DNA of 34,434 nt from Candidatus Methanoperedens sp. (GTDB taxonomy: Archaea > Halobacteriota > Methanosarcinia > Methanosarcinales > Methanoperedenaceae), in assembly GCA_026552975.1 (NCBI GenBank), contig JAPMTR010000090.1, forward strand, positions 1-34,434, in the 5' to 3' direction. Under the pieces are notes generated by a model. The model searched no databases. It was not told where the DNA came from and saw nothing but the letters and a program-made list of their open reading frames with translations. Each line of letters opens with the position of its first letter. The stretch's first letter is position 1. Made by a program: the position numbers and the translations under genes. This document shows positions 2,836 to 32,907 of this stretch, in pieces.

Positions 2836-2888
2836 TTTAATCCTCCAAATATTTTATTTTTTTAACCGTATTTTAATTAATTCAATTA

Positions 2889-3605
2889 TTATGCTTTTAC
2901 ATCCTCTGGTTTTTTTATGCACGACAGGCATGGTACCATGAAGCACATAGCTTCGCCATAAATAGAAGCGCATACAGGTTCAGTATTGATACACCCGCTG
3001 CAAAGAGTTGTCTCAGCTTGCGGCCCCTGGCAGCGAAGTTCACACACAGGGCAGATAAACATGCATGCTCCGCATTTGCGGCACTCATCCGATGTCATGT
3101 CAAAAGGCGTTGTAATATACCGATCCATCCCGCGGCCAGCATATCCTATTGCTTTTGCTACCATCTGTTCTTCACACATTCGTACACATAGGCCGCACAG
3201 GATACAATCATCATTCAATGGATCGAACCTTACTTCCTTTAGCTCCAGCATTGCAGCCATATCCTGCAGTTTCTTCGAGCTGGGGCAGCGGGCGATGAGA
3301 AGTTCAAGTATCATTTTCCTGGTCTTTATCACTCTGCTGGTATGGGTGCGCACATTGAGGCCGCCGGTCACTGGATGCATGCAGGAAGCTACAAGTTTTG
3401 TCCTGTTCCCATTTCCGACTTCTACTACACACATCCTGCATACTCCATAAGGTGTGAGCCCTTCGTCGTGGCAAAGAGTAGGGATTGATATACCATAGAA
3501 CTGTATTGCCTCAAGCAAGCTCCATTTAGGATCTGCCTGCACCTCGGCGCCGTTTAACATGAACGATATCATTTCGCCTCTTGATTTTTCAACTTTTTTT
3601 GACAT
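2889..3605 (-). CDS. HoxU/NuoG N-terminal-like iron-sulfur protein
   Basis: The 238-residue protein begins with a plant-type [2Fe-2S] ferredoxin domain with ligands C45, C56, C59 and C75. Two [4Fe-4S] motifs follow: C134-C137-C140-C144 and C175-C178-C181-C185. The His-Cys cluster found between these regions in NuoG/HoxU is not evident (only RCPSS remains). The C-terminal tail adds eight more cysteines (188, 192, 202, 205, 212, 221, 226, 229), which could bind another metal site. Proteins of this type carry electrons in HoxEFU, Hnd and related diaphorase modules. The molybdopterin-like part of NuoG is absent. It starts 4 nt after the NuoF-like stop codon, with ggag just upstream, so it is translated as part of that operon. 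Confidence 0.85.
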   Translation of the reverse strand: MSKKVEKSRGEMISFMLNGAEVQADPKWSLLEAIQFYGISIPTLCHDEGLTPYGVCRMCVVEVGNGNRTKLVASCMHPVTGGLNVRTHTSRVIKTRKMILELLIARCPSSKKLQDMAAMLELKEVRFDPLNDDCILCGLCVRMCEEQMVAKAIGYAGRGMDRYITTPFDMTSDECRKCGACMFICPVCELRCQGPQAETTLCSGCINTEPVCASIYGEAMCFMVPCLSCIKKPEDVKA

Positions 3606-3609
3606 TTTA

Positions 3610-5460: not shown

Positions 5461-5465
5461 TTAAC

Positions 5466-5933
5466 TCACCTTTTGGCAATTTTTGTACCTAACAGGCTTT
5501 CAACTTTAATGGGAGTCATCTGCCCGCGGTATTCTTCGTTCTTGACAACAACCGGACCTAAAGCACAGGCTCCAACGCAGTTGACGGTCTCCAGTGTATA
5601 TTCATTGTCCTGCGTTGTATCACCTGCTTTGATCCCCAGTTTGCGTTCAAGTTCTTCCAGGACCATTTTTGAACCCCTGACATGGCAGGCAGTACCCATG
5701 CATACGTGTATCTGCTGTTTGCCTTTGGGTTTTAGACTGAATGCCTTGAAAAAAGTTGCAACGCCAAACACCTGAACACGTGGAATTTGTAAACTCTTTG
5801 CCACATGATCCATCGCTTCACGGGGAAGGTACTTGTATTCTACCTGAATATCCTGTAATATTGATATCAATGAACCTTGTTCGTTATTATATTTCTTTAT
5901 TATTGAATCCAGTTTGGATTCATCAATTTTCAT
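5466..5933 (-). CDS. nuoE: NuoE-like [2Fe-2S] thioredoxin-fold subunit
   Basis: The 155-residue protein is the 24-kDa subunit of complex I type (NuoE/HoxE/HndA). It has an N-terminal helical domain (YKYLPREAMDHVA) and a C-terminal thioredoxin-like fold with the [2Fe-2S] ligands C78, C83, C119 and C123 (CX4C...CX3C). It passes electrons within the NuoE-NuoF pair. It is first in the minus-strand operon, preceded by a strong ribosome binding site (aggagga) 7 nt before the ATG. The length is normal for the family. Confidence 0.93.
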   Translation of the reverse strand: MKIDESKLDSIIKKYNNEQGSLISILQDIQVEYKYLPREAMDHVAKSLQIPRVQVFGVATFFKAFSLKPKGKQQIHVCMGTACHVRGSKMVLEELERKLGIKAGDTTQDNEYTLETVNCVGACALGPVVVKNEEYRGQMTPIKVESLLGTKIAKR

Positions 5934-6217: not shown

Positions 6218-7807
6218 ATGAATCTTAGACAACCAAATGCAAATGAAGCGACGCAGACCTATAATCGTTCAAAGAGCGTATCCCCTATGTCAGGGATATG
6301 CACACGGTGCCTTGATGGATGCCGCGGGAATTGCGAAATCTTCAAATCCTCTTTCAGGGGAAGAGAAGTAATTTACCCCGGTCCTTATGGGGCAATAACA
6401 GCTGGTGCAGACAAAAATTATCCAATAGATTATTCCCACCTGAACATACAGGGTTATGCAGTAGGCGCATGGGGACTTCCTGAAGGAGAAGAAGCAAATC
6501 CTGATACAGCCAGGTTCCCGCATGTAAATACCGAGACGGAATACGGCTGGGATAAGAAAGTCAGAATGAAAGTACCGATCTTCACAGGAGCGCTTGGCTC
6601 AACTGAGATCGCACGCAAGCACTGGGAGCACTTTGCAGTTGGCGCAGCAATATCAGGCATTACCCTTGTATGCGGAGAGAACGTATGCGGGATCGACCCC
6701 GGACTCGTTCTTGACAGCAATAAGAAAGTCACGAAATCTCCTGAAATGGATCGAAGAATTACGACTTATAATAAGTACCACGAAGGCTTTGGCGAGATCC
6801 TTGTCCAGATGAACGTTGAAGATACAAGACTTGGCGTGGCTGAATATGTATCATCAAAGCACAATCTGGATACCATCGAACTTAAATGGGGACAGGGCGC
6901 AAAATGCATAGGCGGGGAGATCAAAGTTAACACGATCGAACGCGCAGTTGAACTGAAGAAACGCGGATATATCGTTACCCCTGACCCAGAAGATCATGCT
7001 ATAAAAGCAGCATATAAAGACGGCGCAATAAAAGAATTCGAGAGACATTCAAGACTAGGATTTGTCACCAAAGATGCTTTTATGGATGAGGTTGACCGTC
7101 TCCGTGACCTTGGTTTTAAGAGAGTCACACTCAAGACAGGCGCTTATTCCATGGTCGAAGCTGCAATGGCAATAAAATATTGCTCAGAAGCAAAGATCGA
7201 CCTGCTTACTATCGACGGTGCACCAGGCGGAACTGGTATGAGCCCATGGCCAATGATGGAAGAATGGGGTATCCCGACCTTCTACCTCCAGTCACTTATC
7301 TATGAGTTCGCAGAAAAGATGAAAAAGAAAGGCATGAGAGTACCCGACCTTGCAATGGCAGGCGGATTCTCAAGCGAAGACGGCGTGTACAAGGCACTTG
7401 CAATGGGCGCACCACACTTCAAGGCAGTATGTATGGGAAGAGCACTCATGATCCCGGGATTCGTAGGCAAGAATATCGGCCAGTGGATAAAAGATGGCGA
7501 TCTCCCCAAGACCGTTTCCGAATTCGGAAGCAGGCCTGAAGAGATCTTTGTTTGCTATGAAGAACTCGCAGACCGCTTTGGCAGTGACATAAAGAACCTT
7601 CCTCTCGGAGCAATAGGCATTTACACCTATGCCCAGAAATTCAGGACTGGCTTGCAGCAGCTGATGGCCGGCTCACGAAGGTTCAATATTTCAACCATCG
7701 GGCGACAGGATGTCATGGCACTGACAGAAGATGCGTCAAAGGTCTCAGGCATTCCCTATGTGATGAATGCATATCGAGATGTAGCTGAAGCAATACTGGA
7801 TGAGTAA
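6218..7807 (+). CDS. FMN-binding glutamate-synthase-domain protein (copy B)
   Basis: The 529-residue paralogue of the protein at 1255-2835 is alignable along its whole length. It has an N-terminal CX2CX3CX3C motif (C28, C31, C35, C39) followed by a SSFRGREVIYPGPYGAIT segment shared with copy A, and the FMN loop GAPGGTGMSPWPMMEEWG. It too lacks a glutaminase domain, a GXGXG domain and the canonical [3Fe-4S] cysteines. The ribosome binding site ggagga is 5 nt before the ATG. It is transcribed alone and divergently from the NuoE/F/HoxU/copy A operon and ends in a hairpin plus T-tract. Its position suggests a related substrate or condition-specific alternative to copy A; the reaction is unknown. 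Confidence 0.85.
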   Translation: MNLRQPNANEATQTYNRSKSVSPMSGICTRCLDGCRGNCEIFKSSFRGREVIYPGPYGAITAGADKNYPIDYSHLNIQGYAVGAWGLPEGEEANPDTARFPHVNTETEYGWDKKVRMKVPIFTGALGSTEIARKHWEHFAVGAAISGITLVCGENVCGIDPGLVLDSNKKVTKSPEMDRRITTYNKYHEGFGEILVQMNVEDTRLGVAEYVSSKHNLDTIELKWGQGAKCIGGEIKVNTIERAVELKKRGYIVTPDPEDHAIKAAYKDGAIKEFERHSRLGFVTKDAFMDEVDRLRDLGFKRVTLKTGAYSMVEAAMAIKYCSEAKIDLLTIDGAPGGTGMSPWPMMEEWGIPTFYLQSLIYEFAEKMKKKGMRVPDLAMAGGFSSEDGVYKALAMGAPHFKAVCMGRALMIPGFVGKNIGQWIKDGDLPKTVSEFGSRPEEIFVCYEELADRFGSDIKNLPLGAIGIYTYAQKFRTGLQQLMAGSRRFNISTIGRQDVMALTEDASKVSGIPYVMNAYRDVAEAILDE

Positions 7808-14874: not shown

Positions 14875-15318
14875 ATGAAAAATTCCGACATACTCACATG
14901 CTTCCAGTGCGGAGCATGTACGGGAAGCTGTCCTTCTGGAAAGTATACAAGCCTCAATGTGAGAAGGATCATTAAAGATTCTTTAAAAAAAGACATTTCA
15001 GACCATCCTGACCTGTGGATGTGCACCACATGCTACAACTGCCAGGAGCGATGCCCGCGGGGAATAAAAGTAACTGATGCCATACTTTCCCTTCGTGCAG
15101 AAGCTGCCAGGAAAGGACATATCCTGCCTGCTCACAGGGTCGTATGTAAATTCCTTATTGAAACAGGGCATGCGGTCCCTATAGATCAGATAAATATGAC
15201 AAAAAGGGAAAATATAGGACTTTTGGAAACTGAAACAGTCCGAAAGTACCCTAAAGCGCTCAAGGATGTCAGGAAACTCCTGGAATTGACAGGTTTTAAT
15301 GGGCTGATCCAGGAATGA
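14875..15318 (+). CDS. hdrC: Heterodisulfide reductase subunit C (soluble)
   Basis: The 147-residue ferredoxin-like protein has two [4Fe-4S] motifs, C9-C12-C15-C19 and C50-C53-C56-C60. HdrC carries electrons from HdrA to HdrB, where the CoM-S-S-CoB disulfide is reduced in the cytoplasm. It overlaps hdrB by 4 nt (ATGA). No hdrA is nearby, so the third subunit must be encoded elsewhere. The start is placed 27 nt downstream of a TATA box. Confidence 0.93.
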   Translation: MKNSDILTCFQCGACTGSCPSGKYTSLNVRRIIKDSLKKDISDHPDLWMCTTCYNCQERCPRGIKVTDAILSLRAEAARKGHILPAHRVVCKFLIETGHAVPIDQINMTKRENIGLLETETVRKYPKALKDVRKLLELTGFNGLIQE

Positions 15319-16223
15319 AGGAATACTCTCTTTACCTGGGATGCCTTATCCCCAACCGTTATCCTGGAATTGAAAAAGCCACAAAACTTGTTCTTGACCG
15401 GTTAGGAATAAAATGGAGTGAGTTAAAAGAGGCTTCATGCTGCCCGGCACCCGGAGTTTTCAGGTCTTTTGATCAAAACACATGGCTTACTCTTGCGGCA
15501 CGGAACATCATCCTTTGCGAGGAGAAAAATACTGATCTTCTGACGATCTGCAATGGATGTTTCAGTACGCTTGTTGATGCGAACAATATTTTGAAAAATA
15601 ATGGCGACCTGAGGGTTCAGGTAAATGACCACCTTAAGAAAATAGGAAAGGAGTTCAGGGGGACGATCCAGGTCAGGCACATTATAGAATTCCTGGACAA
15701 AGAAATTGGCGCAAAAATGATTGACGAGATGATCGAAAAACCCCTTGAACTAAAGGTAGCTTTACATTATGGCTGCCATCTACTTAAACCCACAAAAGAA
15801 AGAAAACTGGGAGGAGCAGAATTTCCCAAATTTTTTGATGGCCTGGTCGAAGCAACAGGCGCATTAAGCATTCCTTACGAGGGGAAAAACAGCTGCTGTG
15901 GCGCTGGAGGTGGGGTGAGGTCGGCAATGCTTGAAACATCACTCAAGATGACCGAATTCAAACTTGAAAGGATAAAAAAAGCAGGTGCCGACTGCATTGT
16001 TGAAGCGTGTCCATTCTGCCATTTGCAATATGATTCCGGCCAGGTCGAACTGGCAAAAGCTGGAAAGATCTTTGACGTTCCTGTGGTCCATTACAGCCAG
16101 CTGCTAGGGCTTGCGCTGGGTTATTCATTTGAGGATGTAGGTTTGCATCTGAATGCTACCAGGAATCCCGGTTTTGAAAGCAAGATCGCGCTTCTACAGA
16201 AAAAAGATGCATCCATAAAATGA
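15315..16223 (+). CDS. hdrB: Heterodisulfide reductase subunit B (soluble)
   Basis: The 302-residue protein carries two CCG domains, both complete. The first has C10, C42/C43, C79 and C82 (CX31CCX35CX2C); the second has C154, C194/C195, C232 and C235 (CX39CCX36CX2C). In HdrB these bind two non-cubane [4Fe-4S] clusters that split the heterodisulfide CoM-S-S-CoB. Intact ligands argue for an active enzyme. It is coupled to hdrC; an HdrB without a neighbouring HdrA may pair with a remote HdrA or another electron donor. Confidence 0.94.
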   Translation: MKEYSLYLGCLIPNRYPGIEKATKLVLDRLGIKWSELKEASCCPAPGVFRSFDQNTWLTLAARNIILCEEKNTDLLTICNGCFSTLVDANNILKNNGDLRVQVNDHLKKIGKEFRGTIQVRHIIEFLDKEIGAKMIDEMIEKPLELKVALHYGCHLLKPTKERKLGGAEFPKFFDGLVEATGALSIPYEGKNSCCGAGGGVRSAMLETSLKMTEFKLERIKKAGADCIVEACPFCHLQYDSGQVELAKAGKIFDVPVVHYSQLLGLALGYSFEDVGLHLNATRNPGFESKIALLQKKDASIK

Positions 16224-21348: not shown

Positions 21349-23370
21349 ATGCTTTCCTATCTCTTTTTAGGAGTAATCGCAGCATACCTTATCGGGTCTG
21401 TATCAGCCCTGATATTAAATAAAAAAGATCGTTCGTGTACATACGCATCATTTCTTAGCGCCAGTATTGCATCCATCCTTGGCATCGTTTTTTCATTTTC
21501 AGTGTTATCAGGAAAGAATTTTGAATTTACAGCAGCAAGCGACCTGCCTTTGACCTACGGTCTTTTTGTAGATAAATTATCTGCATTCTTCATTCTGGTC
21601 ATATCAATAACAGCGTTTGCAGTATCAATATATTCGATCGGATATGTCCGCGAATATTACGGAAAAAAAAATATCGGTTACCTTGGATTCCTGTACAATA
21701 TTTTTATCCTTTCAATGATTCTTGTCGTTTCTGCAAATAATGTTGTCATGTTCCTGATAGTCTGGGAATTGATGTCCATAATTTCATATCTGCTTGTGCT
21801 TTTCGAACATGAGAACAAAGAAGCAAGAAAAGCGGGTTTCATATATATTGTGATGACACATATCGGCACCGGATTCATTATTTTATCTTTAATGATCCTT
21901 GCAGGTTCAAGCGGAAGTTTCAATTTCAATACCTTCAATGCTGCTGCTGCAGCATTGTCGCCCGGCCTAAAAGATGCGGTTTTTATTTTTGCACTTATTG
22001 GTTTTGGTACTAAAGCCGGCATCGTTCCTTTGCATATATGGCTTCCGTATGCTCATCCTGCGGCGCCGAGCAATGTTTCTGCGCTCATGTCGGGTGTGAT
22101 GATAAAAACAGCGATCTTTATGCTTATTCGCGTCTTTTATGATTTTCTTGGGGCAGATGTTGCCTGGTGGGGCATGCTTGTTTTGATACTTGCGTCAGTT
22201 TCAGCGCTTCTTGGAGTATTGTATGCCCTGATGGAACATGATATGAAACGTCTTCTTGCATATCATAGCGTTGAGAATATCGGGATCATCCTGATAGGAG
22301 TTGGGGTATCCATGATATTTATGGCTTCAGGCCACCCCACCCTTGCAGCGTTTGGATTAATAGCAGGGCTTTACCATACGATCAATCACGCTGTATTTAA
22401 ATCGCTGCTGTTCATGGGAGCAGGCTCTCTTGTTTATGCAACGCACACGAAAAACATTGAGGATTATGGAGGTCTCATCAAGAAAATGCCATGGACTGCG
22501 CTCTTTTTCCTGATAGGGTCGATCTCGATCTGTGCTCTTCCACCCTTTAATGGTTTTGTGAGTGAATGGCTGATCTTCCAGGCTCAATTGTCAAGTATCT
22601 ATCTTTCAGACAATATCACGAAAATGCTCATCCTTTTTAGCGGTGCAGGTCTTGCCCTGACAAGTGCCCTTGCAGCAGCATGTTTTGTGAAAGCCTTCGG
22701 GGTCAGTTTCCTTGCCCTTCCAAGAAGTGAACACGCACGGCATTCGAAGGAAGCGCCTGTCCCAATGCTGATAGGAATGGGTATTCTTTCTCTTATGTGC
22801 ATAGTCCTTGGAGTTTTGCCTTTTTATTTCATCAGGATCTTTGATTCCATATCTTCACCGCTTGTGGGTGTAAGCGTCAGTTCCATGATCAATTCCGATC
22901 TATCGATGGCAACAATATCGGCTTTCCCTGCAACCATTTCGACGGCAGCCATTGCCGTTCTCGTATTTGTGGTTATACCGCTTCCAGTAATCATGTATTT
23001 ACTTCTAAAACGCACCCCAGAGCCGAAATATGAAACATGGGGCTGTGGGCAGCCCATCTCCACCGGAAGAAATGAATATACGGCAACAGCATTCTCAAAG
23101 CCATTCCGCATGTGGTTCGCAGGGTTATTCAGGCCTAGAAGGGAGATACAGACAACGTATTCGGATTCGTCGTTCTTTAAGGGAGGAGTGAGGTTCGAAT
23201 CACAGATCGAGCCAATATTTGAAAAATACCTGTATGATCCGATCATATGGGTAGTTGTGAATGTATCGCGGTTCATGAGGATAATTCAGACAGGGTATCT
23301 CCAGACTTACCTGCTCTATATTCTTATCACGCTTGTGATCTCATTGATCTATGTGGGAAGCGGGGGATGA
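21349..23370 (+). CDS. hyfB: HyfB-like antiporter subunit, copy 1
   Basis: The 673-residue membrane protein belongs to the NuoL/MrpA-type family as in hydrogenase-4 HyfB. It has about 14-16 hydrophobic helices. Conserved charged positions for ion transfer are visible: glutamate in FLIVWELMSIISYLLV, lysine in GFGTKAGIVPLHIWLP and lysine in LMSGVMIKTAIFML. The C-terminal YETWGCGQPISTGRNEYTAT resembles the HyfB tail. It should pump or gate protons or sodium in the Ehr-like complex. It is separated from the other subunits by an ATPase gene and closely resembles copy 2. Confidence 0.92.
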   Translation: MLSYLFLGVIAAYLIGSVSALILNKKDRSCTYASFLSASIASILGIVFSFSVLSGKNFEFTAASDLPLTYGLFVDKLSAFFILVISITAFAVSIYSIGYVREYYGKKNIGYLGFLYNIFILSMILVVSANNVVMFLIVWELMSIISYLLVLFEHENKEARKAGFIYIVMTHIGTGFIILSLMILAGSSGSFNFNTFNAAAAALSPGLKDAVFIFALIGFGTKAGIVPLHIWLPYAHPAAPSNVSALMSGVMIKTAIFMLIRVFYDFLGADVAWWGMLVLILASVSALLGVLYALMEHDMKRLLAYHSVENIGIILIGVGVSMIFMASGHPTLAAFGLIAGLYHTINHAVFKSLLFMGAGSLVYATHTKNIEDYGGLIKKMPWTALFFLIGSISICALPPFNGFVSEWLIFQAQLSSIYLSDNITKMLILFSGAGLALTSALAAACFVKAFGVSFLALPRSEHARHSKEAPVPMLIGMGILSLMCIVLGVLPFYFIRIFDSISSPLVGVSVSSMINSDLSMATISAFPATISTAAIAVLVFVVIPLPVIMYLLLKRTPEPKYETWGCGQPISTGRNEYTATAFSKPFRMWFAGLFRPRREIQTTYSDSSFFKGGVRFESQIEPIFEKYLYDPIIWVVVNVSRFMRIIQTGYLQTYLLYILITLVISLIYVGSGG

Positions 23371-23429
23371 GGGAAGGAAGTTTAATTTCTGGATAGATAC
23401 TTGAATTTGAACCGTCTCAAGGTTAAGGA

Positions 23430-23440
23430 TAACTATATAA
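23430..23440 (+). promoter_or_regulatory. TATA box for the ATPase gene
   Basis: The element actatataatc lies about 22-25 nt before the ATG at 23457, so the gene inserted between the two HyfB copies has its own promoter. Confidence 0.45.
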
Positions 23441-23456
23441 TCCTGAACCCTAATTC

Positions 23457-24695
23457 ATGAATATGGGTTCAGAGATTATATACAGGGATGAGTCCGATGA
23501 AATAAAAAAAATAAACGGCTGGATATTAATTTATGGAAGAAGAAAAGTAGGGAAAACATTCTTAATAAAAAACTTTCTGGAATATGATGTTTTTTTCAGG
23601 GTAAACAGGGACGGCAGTATCTTAGCCGAAAAGTTCGCCATCAGTAGGATTAACAATATGGACGATTTTTCAATGGCAGTATCAGAACTGCTTCTCGCTG
23701 ATAAAAAAGTAGTTATAGATGAATTCCAGAGACTTCCTGAATCTGTAATTGAGGGAATATCCAATCTTCATCCAGAAGGAAAGGTTATTTTTTCCGGCTC
23801 CAGCATGAGGGTAATAAAAAAACTGTTTGGAAACAAATCACCCCTCCTTGGACTGGCCATGCAGTACAGGCTTGGGTTAATAGGGCCGGCAAACATATTA
23901 CGGGAACTTTCAAGAAGAATGGATGCGATGCAGGCAATTGAACTTGCCCCATATCTTGCAGATGCATGGACCATCCCTTTTTTTTCAAAAGAAGGTACCA
24001 GTGAAAAGGTCATTTATGACCTTTTGAAATATTCAAAATTTACGGTACCTTCACTCGTTGGGGAGATATTTACGGAAGAAGAACGAGAGTTCACAAAGGT
24101 ATACGAGGCTATATTAAGGCTTATTGGAGCTGGCGAATTGGATTATAAGAATATAGCCTCAATCCTTGCCGGTAGAAAAGTGATCGAAAGGGCTGATAGC
24201 TCTTTGGTAATTCCATATATCAAAAATATGGAAGGTATGGGGCTGGTGGAATCCCTGTCAATTTTTTCCTCAAAGAAAAAAATGTACAGATTATCTTCGC
24301 CTATAATGGAGGCTTTTTTCTATCTTGCCGACAGATATGGTTTTGAAGATCGGGATGTCAGTTTTGAAGAAGCCAGGCCGACTATAGATAAACTAAGGAA
24401 TTTTGCAGTTCAAAATTTTATCGGGGATTTGTTCGCCATCGTTTACCACGGGAAAAAAGAATATTACGCGACCCCTTCGAAAGAGATGGATTTTATTATA
24501 ACTGTGAGAAATAAGGCGGTTATCATTGGAGAAGTAAAATGGGGAAAATACGACAGCAACGATCTAAAAAAATTTGTCGAAAAAACAACTTTCATCAAAG
24601 CAGAAAAAATATTTATAACTAAAACTAAAAACGAGACAAAGATGGACAAAGTTAAAATAATGGATATGGAAGATATTTTAGCCATGGTCAAATAG
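23457..24695 (+). CDS. Archaeal ATPase with C-terminal DUF234/nuclease-like domain
   Basis: The 412-residue protein is of the archaeal ATPase (STAND-type) + DUF234 family. Walker A is GRRKVGKT (about residue 27) and Walker B is KKVVIDEFQRLPE. A winged-helix region follows, and the C-terminal domain has a PD-(D/E)XK-like arrangement (EMDFII...IIGEVKWGKY). Its cellular job is not established. It has its own TATA box and sits alone between two homologous antiporter genes, so it is probably an inserted gene unrelated to the complex. Its downstream spacer (24696-24858) is G/C-richer than the surroundings. Confidence 0.85.
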   Translation: MNMGSEIIYRDESDEIKKINGWILIYGRRKVGKTFLIKNFLEYDVFFRVNRDGSILAEKFAISRINNMDDFSMAVSELLLADKKVVIDEFQRLPESVIEGISNLHPEGKVIFSGSSMRVIKKLFGNKSPLLGLAMQYRLGLIGPANILRELSRRMDAMQAIELAPYLADAWTIPFFSKEGTSEKVIYDLLKYSKFTVPSLVGEIFTEEEREFTKVYEAILRLIGAGELDYKNIASILAGRKVIERADSSLVIPYIKNMEGMGLVESLSIFSSKKKMYRLSSPIMEAFFYLADRYGFEDRDVSFEEARPTIDKLRNFAVQNFIGDLFAIVYHGKKEYYATPSKEMDFIITVRNKAVIIGEVKWGKYDSNDLKKFVEKTTFIKAEKIFITKTKNETKMDKVKIMDMEDILAMVK

Positions 24696-24858
24696 GGAAA
24701 ACCGTAACCTCAGTATTGATTCACCTATGTGAACCACGAAAAGTGACTCTGCACAGTTCTCAGTATCGCACAGCCCTCCGATTTTACTACCGCGCACATT
24801 GTCCGACGCGATTGTTAGATTGGCGCGAAACGGTTGTGTTCGTCCGTTTATCCCTCAC

Positions 24859-24950
24859 TAATAATCAATACACACCATTTCATTTTCTCAGGTAGTCTTA
24901 AATACCAAAACAAAGATGATACGTGGCTCTGTTGTTCATTAAATTAAATA
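24859..24950 (+). promoter_or_regulatory. Promoter region of the second HyfB-like gene
   Basis: The 12-mer taataatcaata (24859-24870) and TATA box cttaaatac (24897-24905) match those before copy 1, with identical 38-nt spacing. No start codon lies at the expected distance. A second TATA-like aaattaaata (24941-24950) is centred 28 nt before the inferred start at 24974, so it may be the working promoter. Confidence 0.4.
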
Positions 24951-24973
24951 CTTAAAGAAAGCTGGGATTTAAA

Positions 24974-26998
24974 ATTTTAAATTATTTGTTCTTCGGGATC
25001 ATCGCGTTCTACTTGATAGGCGCCGCGTCGGCTGTCGTTCTAAATAAGAAGGACAGGTTATGTTCGTATTCCTCTTTCATAAGCTCCGCAATCGCGGCGC
25101 TGCTGGGAATCATCTTCTCGATCTCAATAATTTTCGGTGATACATTTTCATATGACCTTTCAGGAGGATCATACCTGAAATTTGGCTTTTTTGTTGATAA
25201 GCTCGCTGCATTCTTCATCCTGGTCATATCCATATCCGTCTTTGCAGTCTCGATATACTCAACAGGATATGTTCGCGAATATTTCGGGAAAAAGAATATC
25301 GGCTACCTGGGTTCCCTGTATAATATCTTCGTTCTTTCAATGATACTTGTCGCATCCGCAGATAATGCGGTAATGTTCCTGATCGTCTGGGAATTGATGT
25401 CTGTGGTGTCTTATTTCCTGGTTGTCTATGAACACGAAAAACCCGAAACAAGAAAAGCGGGTTTTATCTATATAGTCATGACCCATATCGGAACTGGTTT
25501 TATCATGCTGTCATTCCTGCTCTTTGTGGGAACAAGCGCAAGTTACAGCTTCGCAACATTCGCAGAAGCAGGTAAAACGATGACACCGCTTCTTAAAGAT
25601 CTTGCATTCATATTCGCACTCATTGGTTTTGGGACAAAAGCCGGAATTGTTCCCATGCATATCTGGCTTCCATACGCTCACCCCGAAGCCCCAAGCAACG
25701 TGTCAGCGCTCATGTCAGGCGTCATGATCAAGATCGCAATTTTTATGCTCATTCGGGTTTTCTTTGATTTCCTTGGCGCAAGCCAGGCCTGGTGGGGTTA
25801 TCTTGTGCTTATTCTTGGCACGATATCTGCGATACTTGGAATTCTCTATGCGGTCGTGGAATCCGATATCAAGAGAATGCTTGCATTTAGCAGTATCGAA
25901 AATATCGGGATAATCCTCATTGGAATTGGCGCATCCATGATCTTTTTCGCAAGTGGAAAGCCTGTCCTTGCATCCATCGCCGCAGTAGCCGCTTTATATC
26001 ATTTGCTTAACCATTCCATATTCAAAGGTCTATTATTTATGGGTGCAGGCTCGATCCTTTATTCAACTCATACGAAAAACATCGAAGAATTGGGTGGTCT
26101 TATCAAGAAAATGCCAAAAAGCGCGATCTTAATCCTTATCGGGGTTCTATCGATATGTGCATTGCCGCCTTTTAGCGGTTTTGTGAGCGAATGGCTGACT
26201 TTCCAATCGCTGCTCCTGGGTTTCAATTTGAATGAATCCTTCCCCCGGATAATATTATCCATAAGCGCTGCGACCCTTGCTTTAACAGGAGCGCTTGCAG
26301 CTTATTGTTTCCTCAAATTTTTCGGGATAGGATTCCTGGCACTTCCAAGAAGCAAACATGCAGAACATGCAAAGGAAGCAAATACGCCAATGCTTATCGG
26401 AATGGGGATATTTGCAGCATTATCGATATTACTTGGCATCCTGCCATTTTATGTATTGCCTGTACTCGAAAGGATCGCAGCATCATTTACAGGGAACCTT
26501 GAATCGTTCACTTTCGGGGAATTTGCTACATTTTCTATCCCCTCAGGGGCTATCTCTTCGTCGACTCCGGTGATCCTGGCATTAATGATCATTTTTATAT
26601 TTATCCCATCAATCATCCTGTTCCTGAAATACAGGAAAGATCAACCGGTATATGAAACATGGGGATGCGGACAACCTGTATCCACATCAAGGAATGAATA
26701 TACAGCTACTGCTTTTTCAAAACCTGTGCTGATGTGGTTCAAGAACATTTATCGTCCCAAAAGAGAGATAGATATTACGTATTCCACATCTCCCTTACTT
26801 AAAGAATCCTTTAAATTCGAGTCCAGGATCGAACAGGTGATCGAACAATACTTATACGAACCAGTCGTCGGTTTTGTTATTTCAAGATCAAGGAAATTAT
26901 TGAAGATCCGCACTGGAAGCATCCAAACATATCTGGGTTACATTTTTGGCACATTAATTATACTATTCATGTATGTTATAACAGGAGGCAGCTCATGA
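24974..26998 (+). CDS. hyfB: HyfB-like antiporter subunit, copy 2
   Basis: The 674-residue protein is clearly homologous to copy 1 over its whole length. It has the same ion-path residues (FLIVWELMSVVSYFLV, GFGTKAGIVPMHIWLPYAHP, LMSGVMIKIAIFMLIR) and the HyfB tail YETWGCGQPVSTSRNEYTAT. Alignment with copy 1 (start MLSYLFLG) puts the N-terminus at ATT 24974 (then LNYLFFG); no ATG, GTG or CTG is suitably placed in frame. The first standard start is TTG 24986, which would remove four residues. The ATG of hyfC overlaps the stop by 4 nt. It leads the main subunit operon. Confidence 0.9.
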   Translation: MLNYLFFGIIAFYLIGAASAVVLNKKDRLCSYSSFISSAIAALLGIIFSISIIFGDTFSYDLSGGSYLKFGFFVDKLAAFFILVISISVFAVSIYSTGYVREYFGKKNIGYLGSLYNIFVLSMILVASADNAVMFLIVWELMSVVSYFLVVYEHEKPETRKAGFIYIVMTHIGTGFIMLSFLLFVGTSASYSFATFAEAGKTMTPLLKDLAFIFALIGFGTKAGIVPMHIWLPYAHPEAPSNVSALMSGVMIKIAIFMLIRVFFDFLGASQAWWGYLVLILGTISAILGILYAVVESDIKRMLAFSSIENIGIILIGIGASMIFFASGKPVLASIAAVAALYHLLNHSIFKGLLFMGAGSILYSTHTKNIEELGGLIKKMPKSAILILIGVLSICALPPFSGFVSEWLTFQSLLLGFNLNESFPRIILSISAATLALTGALAAYCFLKFFGIGFLALPRSKHAEHAKEANTPMLIGMGIFAALSILLGILPFYVLPVLERIAASFTGNLESFTFGEFATFSIPSGAISSSTPVILALMIIFIFIPSIILFLKYRKDQPVYETWGCGQPVSTSRNEYTATAFSKPVLMWFKNIYRPKREIDITYSTSPLLKESFKFESRIEQVIEQYLYEPVVGFVISRSRKLLKIRTGSIQTYLGYIFGTLIILFMYVITGGSS

Positions 26999-27948
26999 TA
27001 TCGGCATTGGTGTCCGTAATTTTTCAGATAATCATAATTCTTGCGCTTTCACCGCTTCTTAGTGGAATTATCAAGAAAACAAAAGCATTTTTCCAGATCA
27101 GGAAGGGGCCCAGTATATTCCAGCCATATTATGATGTTGCAAAACTTCTCAGGAAGGATTCCGTAATATCACAAAATGTCTCCTGGATATTCCATGCAGC
27201 CCCGATCATATCATTTGCTGCTGTCATGACAGCGGGTCTATTAATACCCATATTTATTACCCGGCTTCCCCTTGGTTTTGCCGGAGACCTGATCGCTGTA
27301 GTCTATCTCTTTGCACTTGCGCGCTTTTTCACCGCTCTTGCTTCACTTGATGCGGGCAGTTCATTTGGAGGCATGGGTGGAAGCCGTGAGATGTTCGTGG
27401 CAGCCATGGTAGAACCTGCATTGATGCTTTCGATATTTGCAGTGGCGCTAAATGTGGGTTCGACTAATTTGAGCTATATTTCACAGACAGTTTCAGGGTT
27501 GGGTATCGATGCATTATCCCCTTACCAGATACTGGCATTCGTTGCGCTGTTTATAATCGCAATAGCAGAAACAGGACGCATACCTGTTGACAATCCTTCT
27601 ACCCATCTTGAACTTACCATGATCCATGAAGCCATGATACTTGAATATTCAGGAAAACAGCTGGCCATCGTTGAACTTGGAGCCATGGTAAAGCAATTAC
27701 TTGTTTTTTCATTGCTTGCTAACATATTTTTCCCCTGGGGTATAGCATCTAGAGAAGCAGGTATTGTAACGATCGTATTAGCTCTTGTTGTTTATATAAT
27801 AAAAATCTTTATGATCGGGATAGCAATGGCTGTGGTTGAGACCTCAACTGCAAAATGGAGACTTTTCAGGCTTCCTGACCTGTTATCCATTTCTTTGATG
27901 TTCTCATTCCTTGCGCTTGTTTCATTTATTATTGTTAAAGGAGGATAA
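26995..27948 (+). CDS. hyfC: HyfC-like membrane subunit (NuoH family)
   Basis: The 317-residue membrane protein is the NuoH/HyfC family, with about eight helices. Conserved segments are RKGPSIFQPYYDVAKLLRK (first cytoplasmic loop), ETGRIPVDNPSTHLELTM (loop close to the peripheral arm) and MIHEAMILEYSGKQLAIVEL. In complex I and energy-converting hydrogenases this subunit anchors the peripheral arm and begins the ion path. It overlaps the second hyfB by 4 nt. Confidence 0.92.
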   Translation: MISALVSVIFQIIIILALSPLLSGIIKKTKAFFQIRKGPSIFQPYYDVAKLLRKDSVISQNVSWIFHAAPIISFAAVMTAGLLIPIFITRLPLGFAGDLIAVVYLFALARFFTALASLDAGSSFGGMGGSREMFVAAMVEPALMLSIFAVALNVGSTNLSYISQTVSGLGIDALSPYQILAFVALFIIAIAETGRIPVDNPSTHLELTMIHEAMILEYSGKQLAIVELGAMVKQLLVFSLLANIFFPWGIASREAGIVTIVLALVVYIIKIFMIGIAMAVVETSTAKWRLFRLPDLLSISLMFSFLALVSFIIVKGG

Positions 27949-27951
27949 AAA

Positions 27952-28611
27952 ATGGCTGAGATTATTTTTGGATCAAATACTATGCAGTTGTTGATAGCTT
28001 TGATACTTGTATCGACTTTTATGATCCTTGGATCGACAAGGCTTTATTCATGCATCCGTGATTTTGGGATCCAGTCATTCCTCCTTGCATGTGTTGCCGG
28101 GACTGTTGCATTTTCTACAGGAAAGGATGAAATATACATTATAGCGGTCCTGACTATTTTATTCAAATCAATAGTTATACCTTATTTCCTATTATATATC
28201 ATTCGTGAGATCAAAGTAAAAAAAGAGGTCGAACTATATGTAAAAATATCACCCTCTCTTATAATCGGAGGAATGCTGGTCGTAATATCATATTATTTGA
28301 TAAGATCCATTAATGTCATTTCTGAACTTTCAAGTTTTGCCCTTTCTGCTTCCGTATCCCTTGTATCAATCGGGCTTTTTATTATGATAAGCAGGAAAAA
28401 GGCCATAATGCAGATGCTGGGTATATTGATCATGGAAAATGGTCTTTTCCTGGGCGCTATATCCCTTACAAATGGGATGCCATTGCTTGTTGAACTTGGA
28501 ATATTCTTCGATGTTCTCATAGCCGTACTTATAATGGGAATATTGATATTCAGGATAAACAAGACCTTTGAAAGTATTGATACAGATCTGCTTAAAACTT
28601 TAATAGGTTGA
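27952..28611 (+). CDS. hyfE: HyfE-like membrane subunit
   Basis: The 219-residue membrane protein resembles HyfE, a NuoK/MrpC-related subunit with about seven helices. It starts 3 nt after hyfC and ends 5 nt before hyfF. No separate NuoJ/NuoA homologue is present, as is normal for hydrogenase-4-type complexes. Confidence 0.85.
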   Translation: MAEIIFGSNTMQLLIALILVSTFMILGSTRLYSCIRDFGIQSFLLACVAGTVAFSTGKDEIYIIAVLTILFKSIVIPYFLLYIIREIKVKKEVELYVKISPSLIIGGMLVVISYYLIRSINVISELSSFALSASVSLVSIGLFIMISRKKAIMQMLGILIMENGLFLGAISLTNGMPLLVELGIFFDVLIAVLIMGILIFRINKTFESIDTDLLKTLIG

Positions 28612-28616
28612 TATAG

Positions 28617-30071
28617 ATGATCGAATATCTCCTTTTTACTCCTATCTTAACCGGTATATTATGCTATTTTACTAGAAGCCGCAGACAGGTTGAGACAATA
28701 AGCATCCTGGGTTCATTGATGACTCTAATATTTGGCCTATCACTTGTCCTGGATGTTTACAGGAATGGTATTATTGTAACATGGCAGAATTCACTATTTG
28801 CGGATGCATTCAGCGCTTATATAGTCCTTATCGTCTCCATCATCAGCTTTGTTTCATCAATTTATTCAATAGGATATATGGGGCATGAGATCAGCCATAA
28901 TGTAATAGATCTGAAGCGATTGAAAATGTATTATGTGCTGTTCCATTTCTTCGTATTCACAATGCTCCTGGTAGGTGTTACCAATAACCTTGGCCTGTGG
29001 ATCGCTATCGAGATGACAACACTTGTGTCAGCACTTCTTATAATTTTTTACTCAAATAAAGCCTCGGTAGAAGCTGCATGGAAATACGTTATTATATCAA
29101 CTGTAGGCATTACATTCGCCCTTTTTGGAACGATCCTTACATATTACGCAGCAGTAAAGATCCTGGGAGAAACAGGTGATGCGCTTAACTGGACATCACT
29201 CATTGCTGTGGCCGGGCAGTTTGACCCTATGATCATGAAACTTGCCTTCATTTTTATTCTGATAGGATATGGCACAAAAGCAGGCCTTGCTCCTATGCAT
29301 ACCTGGCTTCCAGACGCATATAGCGAATCCCCGACCCCGGTGGGCGCGCTTCTTTCAGGAACTCTTGTTAATTGCGCTATGTATGGGATAATTCGATTTT
29401 ATTCAATAGCCACCAAATCAACAGGACCGGAATTCACAAGTAATCTTCTCATAATTTTCGGTCTGCTGTCTCTTGGTATTGCTGTGCCGTTCATTATCCT
29501 CCAGGAAGATTACAAGCGCCTTCTTGCGTATAGCAGCGTTGAGCACATGGGAATTATCGCGCTTGGTATTGGTTTTGGGGGTGTGTACGGGATATTCGGG
29601 GCAATACTCCACATGTTCAACCATGCTATGACAAAATCACTCATGTTCTTTGGCGTGGGAAATGTGCTTCTTAAATATGGGACAAAAGAGATCGATAAAG
29701 TCAGCGGAATAGTTAAAACAATGCCCATGACCGGAGCTATACTTCTGATAGGGGGACTTGCCATCACAGGTTCCCCTCCCTTTAGCATATTCATCAGTGA
29801 GTTTACTATCCTTTCCTCTGGATTCCTGGGAGGCCATATCATCGCATCAGTTTTATTCCTGCTGTTTATAATAATGATCTTTGCAGGCTTTTTCTATAAC
29901 CTGAGCAAAATGATCTTTGGAAACCCAACACCTGGGATAATTCCGGGTGAGGTTAGCAGGTGGACGCTGAGTGCTATGGTGATCCTTGTAGTATTCGTAT
30001 TTGTCCTTGGTTTTTACATGCCCCCCGCCTTTTACAAGATGATCATGAACGTGGTAGCAGTTGTGAGGTGA
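28617..30071 (+). CDS. hyfF: HyfF-like antiporter subunit (NuoM/NuoN family)
   Basis: The 484-residue membrane protein is the third antiporter-like subunit. The glutamate in LWIAIEMTTLVSALLI and lysine in GYGTKAGLAPMHTWLPDAYS are kept. The position that is lysine in HyfB (MSGVMIK) is asparagine here (LSGTLVN), as in several HyfF proteins. With two HyfB copies it would give three ion-translocating modules. It is 4 nt from hyfG. Confidence 0.92.
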   Translation: MIEYLLFTPILTGILCYFTRSRRQVETISILGSLMTLIFGLSLVLDVYRNGIIVTWQNSLFADAFSAYIVLIVSIISFVSSIYSIGYMGHEISHNVIDLKRLKMYYVLFHFFVFTMLLVGVTNNLGLWIAIEMTTLVSALLIIFYSNKASVEAAWKYVIISTVGITFALFGTILTYYAAVKILGETGDALNWTSLIAVAGQFDPMIMKLAFIFILIGYGTKAGLAPMHTWLPDAYSESPTPVGALLSGTLVNCAMYGIIRFYSIATKSTGPEFTSNLLIIFGLLSLGIAVPFIILQEDYKRLLAYSSVEHMGIIALGIGFGGVYGIFGAILHMFNHAMTKSLMFFGVGNVLLKYGTKEIDKVSGIVKTMPMTGAILLIGGLAITGSPPFSIFISEFTILSSGFLGGHIIASVLFLLFIIMIFAGFFYNLSKMIFGNPTPGIIPGEVSRWTLSAMVILVVFVFVLGFYMPPAFYKMIMNVVAVVR

Positions 30072-30075
30072 AAAG

Positions 30076-31644
30076 ATGAATAATGAGATCATAGAAAAGA
30101 TAAAAAAAGATCTTCATGATAACATTCTTGAAGAATCACGATCTCACAATGAAATATATTTCACTGTAAAAAAAGGATCGATCGTAAAATTATGCGATCA
30201 TATCTACTATCATTTGGACCTGCCGCTTGTTTCGATATTTGCTACCGATGAAAGAAAAATTGATGGGTCATTCAAGATCCATTATGTTTTTTCGATGGAC
30301 AGGAACGATGCCTTCATCATTCTAAGAATAAAAGTTGACAGTAAAGAATCATCATATCCTTCAATCACACCCAAGATCGCCTCTGCGAACTGGTATGAGC
30401 GGGAAATGCAGGACATGTTCGGCCTTGTTCCGCTGGGACATCCTGACCCCAGGAGGCTTATGAATTTTGAGGATTGGCCTGAGGAGATCCATCCCCTGCG
30501 GAAAGACTTTGATATCAAAACAAAACCACCCCGTGTCAAAGGCGAATATATTTATCGCCATGTAGATGGTGAAGGAGTTTATGAGATACCTGTGGGGCCA
30601 GTCCACGCAGGCGTTATTGAACCCGGGCACTTCAGGTTCAGTGTGGCCGGCGAGCCCATAATCAATCTTGAAATAAGGCATTTCTACACACATAAAGGTG
30701 TTGAGAAATTGTTCGAGAACATCTCGATAGATAAAGCTGTATTTCTGGCTGAAAGAGTCTCCGGTGATAACTCAGTGGCTCATGTTGTCGCATTTTGCCA
30801 GGCTATGGAAAAAATAGCTCTCATCAATGTTCCCCTTCGCGCAATATACATCAGGACGATCCTTCTTGAACTTGAACGCATATACAACCATCTCGCAGAT
30901 ATTGCCGGGATCGCAACAGATGTGGCTTTTGCATTCGGGGCTGCTCATGCTAACAAGTTAAAAGAAGAAGTATTGCAGCTCAACGAGCAAATAACAGGCA
31001 GCAGGATGCTTCGCGGCATGAACGCGATCGGAGGGGTGAGGCGCGATATTGGTGATAAGAAGAATATGATCTTACAAAAATTGTCCAATATCCAGCGTGA
31101 TTTCAGGAAATTAATGGAACATCTCACCTCTACACCTTCACTTATGGACCGGATAGAAAATACGGGGCGCATCTATAATGATATAGCAAAAGGATTGCAT
31201 GTGGTTGGGCCGGTAGGGCGAGCCTCAGGTTTAGACCGGGACACAAGGCGTGACCATCCTTATGCGGCTTACAAAGAATTAAATTTCAAAGTGCCGATTC
31301 AAAAAGCAGGCGATGTTCTTTCAAGAACGATAGTGCGGGCTGATGAAATATGTGAATCCGTGGCTTTGATCGAGCAGGCACTCTGGGCTCTTCCTGAAGG
31401 AGAGATCAGGGTACATCTTGACAGAATCCCCGACGGCCAGGCCCTGGGATATACAGAAGCGCCAAGAGGCGAGACCATTTACTGGATCAGGACGATCGGG
31501 AACAGGATCGAACGATGCAAGGTTCGAGACCCGTCTTTTTGTAACTGGCTTGCTATTGAGTATGCTGTTCTTGATAATATCGTTCCAGATTTTCCCATAA
31601 TAAACAAGAGCCTGAGTTTATCATACTCTGGTAACGATATGTAG
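30076..31644 (+). CDS. hyfG: HyfG-like large subunit (NuoC-NuoD fusion) without NiFe ligands
   Basis: The 522-residue protein joins a NuoC-like domain (residues 1-150, with NWYEREMQDMFGLVPLGHPD) to a NuoD/hydrogenase large-subunit domain. In group 4 hydrogenases the NiFe site is held by ERxCGxC near the middle and DPCxxC at the C-terminus. Here they read ERVSGDNS (residues 226-233; cysteines become S229 and N232) and LSLSYSGNDM (cysteines become S516 and G519). All four ligands are gone, so it cannot carry the NiFe centre. The same loss occurs in NuoD and in Ehr-type complexes, where a different substrate site is presumed. The ribosome binding site gaggtg is 6 nt before the ATG. Confidence 0.93.
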   Translation: MNNEIIEKIKKDLHDNILEESRSHNEIYFTVKKGSIVKLCDHIYYHLDLPLVSIFATDERKIDGSFKIHYVFSMDRNDAFIILRIKVDSKESSYPSITPKIASANWYEREMQDMFGLVPLGHPDPRRLMNFEDWPEEIHPLRKDFDIKTKPPRVKGEYIYRHVDGEGVYEIPVGPVHAGVIEPGHFRFSVAGEPIINLEIRHFYTHKGVEKLFENISIDKAVFLAERVSGDNSVAHVVAFCQAMEKIALINVPLRAIYIRTILLELERIYNHLADIAGIATDVAFAFGAAHANKLKEEVLQLNEQITGSRMLRGMNAIGGVRRDIGDKKNMILQKLSNIQRDFRKLMEHLTSTPSLMDRIENTGRIYNDIAKGLHVVGPVGRASGLDRDTRRDHPYAAYKELNFKVPIQKAGDVLSRTIVRADEICESVALIEQALWALPEGEIRVHLDRIPDGQALGYTEAPRGETIYWIRTIGNRIERCKVRDPSFCNWLAIEYAVLDNIVPDFPIINKSLSLSYSGNDM

Positions 31645-31652
31645 GTGGAAGA

Positions 31653-31991
31653 ATGCTTGAGATAATTAAGAAAACATTACGGACTGGTTGTCAAACTATT
31701 AAGTACCCGCAGGTTCCCGATATAGCCCCGGAAGGGTTTAGGGGGAAACCAGAGTTTGCCGCTGAAAAGTGCACCTATTGCGGAAATTGCATAAAGGTTT
31801 GTCCTCCAGGGGTTATATGGCTCTGTGAACAAAAAGGTGAAAAAAGGCTTTCATTATCCTGCTGTGGCTGCATATTCTGTGGAAGATGCGAGGAAGTATG
31901 CACGGCAGGCGCCATTAAACTTACTCTGGAATATGAACTTTGCGCAAAGAAAAAAGAGGATCTTTTATCAAGCATCAGGAGTAAGTCATGA
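31653..31991 (+). CDS. hyfH: HyfH-like ferredoxin subunit (NuoI family)
   Basis: The 112-residue protein has two [4Fe-4S] motifs, C40-C43-C46-C50 and C73-C76-C79-C83. In related complexes it links an electron donor to the proximal cluster in HyfI. The ATG lies 8 nt after hyfG, preceded by tggaag. It overlaps hyfI by 4 nt. Short length is normal for hydrogenase-4-type versions. Confidence 0.9.
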   Translation: MLEIIKKTLRTGCQTIKYPQVPDIAPEGFRGKPEFAAEKCTYCGNCIKVCPPGVIWLCEQKGEKRLSLSCCGCIFCGRCEEVCTAGAIKLTLEYELCAKKKEDLLSSIRSKS

Positions 31992-32476
31992 CAGTTGAAG
32001 ACGAGATCGAGATCATGGGGCAGCGAATGAATGATAAGATCAAAAAGATATTTGGCCGCTCCCTTCATATTCGTGAAGTTGATGCAGGTTCTTGCAACGC
32101 ATGTGAGGTAGAAGTAAATGCCCTCTCAAATCCCATATACGATATCGAACGATTCGGTCTGCATATTGTTGCATCCCCCAGGCATGCCGACATGCTGCTA
32201 GTTACAGGTCCTGTGACGAGAAATATGGAACTGGCGCTTCTTAAGACCTATAATGCCACCCCGTCTCCGAAACTTGTTGCCGCGATGGGATCATGTGCCT
32301 GCAATGGCGGTATTTTCGGGGATACATACGCAAGCTGCGGTGGCGTTGATAAGATCCTTCCGGTTGATGTTTATATACCTGGCTGTCCCCCCAGACCACA
32401 GGCTTTGATCTTTGGGATCATGGTAGCGATTGATAAACTTGAACAAAAGATAAAGAGAAAAGAGGCATTATCATGA
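31988..32476 (+). CDS. hyfI: HyfI-like small subunit (NuoB family)
   Basis: The 162-residue protein binds the proximal [4Fe-4S] cluster with C36, C39, C103 and C133 (DAGSCNACEVE, GSCAC, PGCPPRP). The CX2C arrangement is the hydrogenase-like form rather than the tandem CC of complex I NuoB. With its four ligands intact, electrons can still reach the HyfG interface even though HyfG lacks a NiFe site. It overlaps uspA by 4 nt. Confidence 0.93.
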   Translation: MTVEDEIEIMGQRMNDKIKKIFGRSLHIREVDAGSCNACEVEVNALSNPIYDIERFGLHIVASPRHADMLLVTGPVTRNMELALLKTYNATPSPKLVAAMGSCACNGGIFGDTYASCGGVDKILPVDVYIPGCPPRPQALIFGIMVAIDKLEQKIKRKEALS

Positions 32477-32907
32477 CAAAATATGAGATCCTTCTTGCCA
32501 CAGATGGAAGTGAATGTGCACATAAAGCTGAAATCGCAGCCATGAAGATCTCTAAATCATATAATATCAGGATGGCAGCGATCTATGTGGCTGTGGCCAG
32601 GAAGGATTCAGAACGAGAGGAACTTATTGCTCATGGCGAGGAAGTACTAAAGCGAGTGGTTGAAACAGGGGAAAATATGGGAGTTGATATCCATAAGATC
32701 CTCGTAGGGGTAAGCATCCAGCGGATGCCTGTAAAAGGAGCGCGTGCAGAGATCATTGCTCATTCGATCCTTGAAGCTGCCGGGAAATACGGGGTTCATA
32801 CCATCGTCATGGCCAGTGAGGGTGAAACTGAGCGGGACCCTGATCTTGGAAGCGTTGCACAGGCAGTAGTGAGAAAAGCGAAATGTACTGTGCTTGTGGC
32901 AAGATGA
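32473..32907 (+). CDS. Universal stress protein (UspA family)
   Basis: The 144-residue protein is a UspA-type Rossmann-like domain: YEILLATDGSECAHKAEIAA at the start and a GETERDPDLGSVAQAVV loop near the nucleotide site, close to the ATP-binding G-x2-G-x9-G(S/T) pattern but not a perfect match. Its ATG overlaps the hyfI stop (ATGA), so it is made with the Ehr-like complex and may sense nucleotides or link the complex to energy status. That link is an inference from position. Confidence 0.88.
   Translation: MTKYEILLATDGSECAHKAEIAAMKISKSYNIRMAAIYVAVARKDSEREELIAHGEEVLKRVVETGENMGVDIHKILVGVSIQRMPVKGARAEIIAHSILEAAGKYGVHTIVMASEGETERDPDLGSVAQAVVRKAKCTVLVAR

Follow-up and report, generated by a model that had tools for sequence, protein, structure and literature searches.

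A group 4 hydrogenase-like complex without NiFe ligands in Candidatus Methanoperedens, and a sister branch that also lacks small-subunit cluster ligands

A hydrogenase-like gene cluster of Candidatus Methanoperedens encodes a large subunit, HyfG, in which all four cysteine ligands of the NiFe centre have been replaced in place. The resulting cluster-bearing complex of the Ehr family is not a hydrogenase, and we consider it about an even bet that it instead oxidizes ferredoxin, hands the electrons to an acceptor other than protons and translocates H+ or Na+. Two aspects of the family appear to be new. The Methanoperedens form keeps the Fe-S ligands of its small subunit, HyfI, and adds HyfH, a subunit with two [4Fe-4S] motifs, such that electron entry should be possible, and a sister branch found in methanogens and Dehalococcoidales has lost all four HyfI cysteines as well. 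We tentatively propose that the Ehr clade includes two machines built on one frame. One would be the ferredoxin-oxidizing ion pump of Methanoperedens, with a third kind of pocket that is neither a NiFe nor a quinone site, filling the ferredoxin step of ANME-2d metabolism. The other would be a six-subunit, complex-I-like assembly that is conserved in methanogens and Dehalococcoidales although it has no recognizable redox cofactor ligand left, which would imply ion movement without electron transfer.

The window (the whole stretch of 34,434 nucleotides that was analysed, our contig C99) is part of a 2.57 Mb Candidatus Methanoperedens (ANME-2d) genome. Ten codirectional genes occupy positions 21349-32907 of the forward strand, in the order HyfB1, ATPase, HyfB2, HyfC, HyfE, HyfF, HyfG, HyfH, HyfI and Usp. 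HyfB2 (24986-26998, with a TTG start as called) is a NuoL-like antiporter subunit, and HyfB1 (21349-23370) is a second NuoL-like subunit with 61% identity to it. Between the two lies an AAA_14-type ATPase gene (23457-24695) that is unrelated and stands outside the complex. Three further membrane subunits follow, namely the NuoH-like HyfC (26995-27948), the NuoK-like HyfE (27952-28611) and the antiporter-like HyfF (28617-30071), and then the HyfG/EhrL-like large subunit (30076-31644), the ferredoxin-like HyfH (31653-31991), whose two [4Fe-4S] motifs are intact, the small subunit HyfI (31988-32476), the first 4 bases of which lie within HyfH, and a universal stress protein (Usp; 32473-32907), which shares 4 bases with HyfI. 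Because the intergenic gaps from HyfB2 to Usp measure -4 to +8 bases and Shine-Dalgarno-like sequences precede most starts, this stretch qualifies by sequence criteria as a single operon. Where the contig of a Methanoperedens copy is long enough to show it, the Usp gene nearly always comes after HyfI. An earlier reading of this DNA, here called the original prediction, described the operon beyond HyfG as intact, which needs amending in that the two HyfB genes are split by the unrelated ATPase and that the HyfA, HyfD and HyfJ proteins of Escherichia coli have no counterparts in the window's operon. Neither a maturation protease gene nor a partner dehydrogenase gene was found in the operon.

The HyfG reading frame runs without interruption for 522 amino acids and joins a NuoC-like part (residues 1-150) to a NuoD/NiFe-large-subunit-like part (residues 169-522). 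Its best match in a phmmer search of the PDB is E. coli HycE (7z0s_E; E 4e-100, aligned over residues 24-521), and the same chain is closest to its predicted fold (Foldseek E 1e-37, TM 0.90, 34% identity). The model is a single chain with a mean pLDDT of 81.8 that falls below 50 at residues 158-206 and 517-522, and the geometry of the pocket is therefore left uninterpreted. The first CxxC motif (ERVCGxC, or DRVCGIC in hydrogenase 3) is replaced by ERVSGDN (residues 226-232, positions 30751-30771), with S229 and N232 at the cysteine positions. The second (SLDPCxxCTDR, or SLDPCYSCTDR in hydrogenase 3) is replaced by SLSLSYSGNDM followed by the stop codon (residues 512-522, positions 31609-31641), with S516 and G519 at the cysteine positions. 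Neither of the two CxxC motifs that mark a group 4 [NiFe] hydrogenase is present, and the loss of all four cysteines in place, as originally predicted, is borne out by both the PDB and the family alignments; the motif quoted at the time as SLSYSG was correct as far as it went. The four ligands are likewise replaced in 42/42 relatives in the whole-family alignment. The last residue of HyfG aligns with the final residue of CTDR in hydrogenases, and there is no extension beyond it; we take this CTDR end to be the cleavage site at which mature hydrogenases such as HycE, processed by HycI, terminate.

Conserved cysteines displaced to other parts of HyfG had been named in advance as evidence that would count against the loss of the metal site, and none found in the alignment would rescue it. 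C241 and C489 are each conserved in 37 of the 42 ligand-less rows, but they are single cysteines that form no CxxC pair, and both are shared with other proteins (C489 occurs in FqoD, in 5/6 Fqo/Nuo rows, and some Fpo and NiFe proteins have C241). We also reject the notion of a pseudogene or a decaying hydrogenase. The residues that replace the ligands are near-invariant, SLSLSYSGND is essentially invariant among the copies in the genus that reach the C-terminus, and HyfG has dN/dS values of 0.05-0.07 against three relatives (with dS near saturation for two of them), which together point to strong purifying selection.

The HyfG-like gene is present in 29 of the 31 genomes of the genus, the exceptions being G023 (74% complete) and G024 (99% complete). 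HypD, which is required to make the NiFe(CN)2CO group, has a far narrower distribution. It was found in 9/31 genomes, eight of which have the complex, and went undetected in 21 of the 29 that carry the complex. Many of these 21 are 97-100% complete, and although the incompleteness of metagenome-assembled genomes could account for a few absences, it could not account for 21. The organisms concerned should therefore be unable to make the cofactor. Furthermore, a PF00374 search of 21 genus genomes returned the HyfG-like gene as the sole match in 14, none of which has HypD, and found further, true NiFe large subunits in the other seven, all of which have it. This split indicates that HypD goes with the true hydrogenases rather than with this complex. 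In the genome of the window itself, HypD is present together with true NiFe hydrogenases on another contig (C20), and so the argument against a hydrogenase there rests on the ligands. HypA proved uninformative as a test of cofactor synthesis, since it is widespread in genomes without HypD (it occurs in nearly all Methanoperedens genomes) and may have a role in another nickel enzyme.

In a tree computed with the motif columns left out, all 33 ligand-less HyfG proteins form one clade with support of 100/100. These rows come from Methanoperedens, other Methanosarcinales, Methanoregula-type methanogens, Dehalococcoidales, a Woesearchaeote, rhizobia, Methylocalor and Meiothermus. The clade lies inside the hydrogenases as the sister of the group 4a HycE/HyfG proteins and does not branch with FqoD, NuoD or FpoD. 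As the ligand-less proteins form a single clade, the NiFe ligands were lost once in this sample. Ehr complexes of other bacteria are defined by the lack of Ni- and Fe-binding residues (PMC6349859, PMC10284858, PMC7304191), and we file the Methanoperedens complex in this family on the basis of shared features, the tree rows being without a named Ehr protein such as Geobacter EhrL. The twofold judgement of the original prediction, that this is not a hydrogenase and that it is of Ehr type, is thus supported by ligand replacement in every aligned relative and by a single clade apart from the group 4 hydrogenases, and its first half also by the distribution of HypD. Ehr clusters of six genes were also seen on plasmids of the aerobic Methylocalor, Bradyrhizobium and Rhizobium (L099, L100 and L102), with intact HyfI ligands and no HyfH, and so the electron donor there must differ.

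Several known systems offer useful comparisons. The Ehr complex of Geobacter sulfurreducens (EhrA-1, C, L and S; GSU0739-0745) is related to Ech and Hyf, and its physiological role is uninvestigated (PMC7894505). By its published make-up it shares with the Methanoperedens complex two NuoL-like subunits, a HyfE-like EhrC and a large and a small subunit, whereas HyfH, which is not listed for Geobacter, and the Usp gene are found in Methanoperedens. Other subunits of the Geobacter complex presumably bear the names EhrA-2, EhrB and EhrD. Hydrogenases 3 and 4 of E. coli (HycE/HyfG, group 4a) are the closest in sequence and predicted fold and have the same NuoC-NuoD fusion and HyfH- and HyfI-type partners, but the Methanoperedens complex is without the four NiFe ligands, the C-terminal extension, HyfA, HyfD and HyfJ, and a maturation protease gene. 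Fpo and Fqo (F420H2 dehydrogenases of the complex I family) share the modular build, and FqoD is encoded in the same genomes; in contrast to them, Ehr groups with hydrogenases, lacks the quinone-binding His and Tyr and has small-subunit ligands of the CxxC type rather than the CC type. The similarity of Methanoperedens HyfG to the Pyrococcus Mbs/Mbx complexes (6u8y) is lower than its similarity to HycE.

The original prediction that the small subunit keeps its cluster ligands was accurate, as HyfI retains CNAC (the hydrogenase-type motif), GSCAC and PGCPP. Together, HyfI and HyfH of the Methanoperedens form keep 12 cluster ligands. The four HyfI cysteines are also kept in neighbours of the genus, in a genome of another family (G067), in rhizobia and in Methylocalor. 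Elsewhere they are replaced in place by the conserved sequences GSDNxxE, GDDAC and PGNPP. This is the case in the f5 genomes (genera g18 and g19 of the same order, apparently Methanosarcina-like by kinship and by their Fpo and Ech genes), in Methanoregula and other Methanomicrobiales, in Dehalococcoidales and in the Woesearchaeote (the HyfI genes of L046-L053 and L077-L093). In this cluster-less branch none of the six subunits has been lost and the HyfG signature persists, which makes it a conserved six-subunit complex without any recognizable cofactor ligand. On the plasmid pMESIL01 of Allomeiothermus silvanus (Meiothermus; L098:13308-14180), the HyfI ligands instead read GNTGLDD, GNEAI and PGSPA after a degenerate ferredoxin-like N-terminus. 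The tree requires two losses of HyfI ligands, and the one in Meiothermus is independent of that in the other cluster-less lineages. We found no description of HyfI ligand loss in Ehr, or of a cluster-less branch, in open-licence papers.

Residues beside the ligand positions have changed in step with the cluster. All 19 cluster-bearing rows have the arginine of ERxxGxx (R227), as hydrogenases do, whereas 22 of the 23 cluster-less rows have lost it. H236 follows almost the same pattern, being kept, again as in hydrogenases, in the cluster-bearing branch and almost wholly lost in the other. The HyfG signature (G179, I181, S229, G230, D231, N510, K511, S512, S516, Y517, G519 and D521) is, by comparison, common to both branches. 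Natural fusions of HyfH to HyfI occur at L034, L037, L040 and L134 (the last in G067), which suggests that electrons pass between the two. The membrane arm has up to three antiporter-like subunits (HyfB1, HyfB2 and HyfF), all with the Glu of TM5, the Lys of TM7 and the Glu of TM12, and this triad is retained in cluster-bearing and cluster-less branches alike. HyfB1 and HyfB2 go back to an old duplication, with a single copy lost in some lineages.

These observations constrain, to different degrees, what the Methanoperedens complex might do. A true [NiFe] hydrogenase with other ligands would accord with an earlier annotation as an Ech hydrogenase (PMC4683180) and with the presence of HypA in the genus, but it is strongly disfavoured and in our estimation extremely improbable, given that HyfG has no spare conserved CxxC and ends at the final motif without a C-terminal extension, and that HypD is missing from 21 genomes with the complex. 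The original prediction also suggested a possibly membrane-soluble acceptor (methanophenazine or quinone), and an enzyme that passes electrons from ferredoxin to menaquinone at a quinone site like that of complex I would suit both the complex-I-like architecture and the use of menaquinone as the membrane carrier of Methanoperedenaceae (PMC7327174). However, every Ehr row in the alignment has Ile181 and Gly230 where NuoD-type proteins have a particular His and Tyr, a pair that is retained by the FqoD of these very genomes (Fpo retains the Tyr). We take this His and Tyr to be what holds the quinone headgroup in NuoD and FqoD, as in complex I, and their replacement makes a canonical quinone site unlikely. 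In addition, the search for NuoD-type genes in G067 found two group 4 hydrogenases and a cluster-bearing Ehr but no FpoD, so that the acceptor in that genome does not have to be a lipid carrier. Hence the part of the earlier interpretation that excluded a hydrogenase and favoured Ehr stands, and a canonical quinone site is disfavoured; we regard this form of the proposal as rather unlikely.

A complex that translocates or antiports ions without net redox catalysis, with its hydrophilic arm serving as scaffold or sensor and the Fe-S clusters of the Methanoperedens form as a gate instead of an electron relay, would draw on the sister branch, where six subunits and the HyfG signature persist with every HyfI ligand replaced, such that the architecture can evidently outlast its redox cofactors. 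The antiporter residues kept in both branches and the Usp gene coupled to the operon also fit. Even so, we think it unlikely for Methanoperedens, where 12 cluster ligands, a cluster-adjacent arginine and a dedicated ferredoxin subunit are hard to explain without electron transfer. Mbs of Pyrococcus is a known precedent for a group-4-like, ferredoxin-oxidizing complex that is not a hydrogenase, and HyfG does match 6u8y_L (E 4e-43), yet an Mbs/Mbx-like enzyme that reduces sulfane sulfur, polysulfide or another soluble acceptor strikes us as quite improbable because Ehr is closest to HycE and not to MbxL by sequence and fold, a comparison of overall similarity and not of active-site residues. Mbx has itself been named as a hydrogenase-related complex (PMC6349859).

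The preferred reading, a ferredoxin-oxidizing ion pump, would operate as follows. Reduced ferredoxin from formylmethanofuran oxidation and from the CO dehydrogenases of Methanoperedens would deliver electrons to HyfH, whose presence is our reason for proposing ferredoxin as the donor, and these would move on to the cluster of HyfI, next to the altered pocket of HyfG, and exit to an acceptor other than protons, while the energy released would drive H+ or Na+ through HyfB and HyfF. Judging from physiology, our best guess for the final acceptor in Methanoperedens is the menaquinone pool, reached through a site that does not resemble the one in complex I. Three observations count against this reading. 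The quinone ligands are absent, and the pocket signature is shared with cluster-less relatives; since SGD and NKS..SY.G.D also occur in proteins whose partner has no HyfI Fe-S ligand, the pocket residues do not necessarily act on a redox substrate. In addition, the ‘Ech’ transcripts were low in one enrichment (RPKM 52-80, against 946-1396 for HdrDE; PMC4683180).

In current models, the ferredoxin of ANME-2d is re-oxidized either by an ‘Ech hydrogenase’ or through electron confurcation. Our PF00346 search of the genus found only FqoD and the gene described here, including in the strains BLZ2 (G017/L044) and ANME-2D (G014/L036), and the same search finds EchE-type proteins with intact ligands in methanogens examined as controls. 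Because the genus holds only these two NuoD-type genes, the Ehr complex described here is almost certainly what was published as the Ech hydrogenase of ANME-2d. In Ech the NuoC-like subunit is EchD, and with NuoC fused into HyfG it would look missing. This identity agrees with later papers in which related strains were found to lack Ech or a functional hydrogenase (PMC12246660, PMC13079737). An ‘Ech’ that is an Ehr unable to make H2 indicates that H2 should be removed from ANME-2d models. Methanoperedens has no Rnf, its ferredoxin route is unsettled and it uses menaquinone (PMC7327174, PMC4683180); as a candidate for energy conservation linked to ferredoxin, the Ehr complex is both specific and genus-wide, and it may be the missing route for unloading ferredoxin. 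Furthermore, with NiFe and then Fe-S ligands lost in two steps within one clade, comparison of the branches makes it testable for what purpose a complex-I-like machine needs electrons.

Some neighbouring genes deserve mention. The window carries diaphorase-like genes resembling NuoE/HoxE, NuoF and HoxU and two proteins with glutamate-synthase domains (1255-5933 on the reverse strand and 6218-7807 on the forward strand), a group that is possibly an NAD(P)H module; its NuoE/NuoF/HoxU-like genes (2889-5933) lie about 15 kb from the operon on the opposite strand. An HdrC and HdrB pair is found at 14875-16223 on the forward strand (TIGR03290 and TIGR03288, above cut-off). The gap between HyfB1 and HyfB2 is a site that collects insertions, and at L021:2812-4341 (reverse strand) an inverted second copy of HyfF sits where the window has its ATPase gene. 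At L134 in G067, the Ehr operon lies between F420-hydrogenase-like genes and genes for a FocA-like transporter, a formate-dehydrogenase-like protein and a beta-carbonic-anhydrase-like protein, as judged by eye from the translations.
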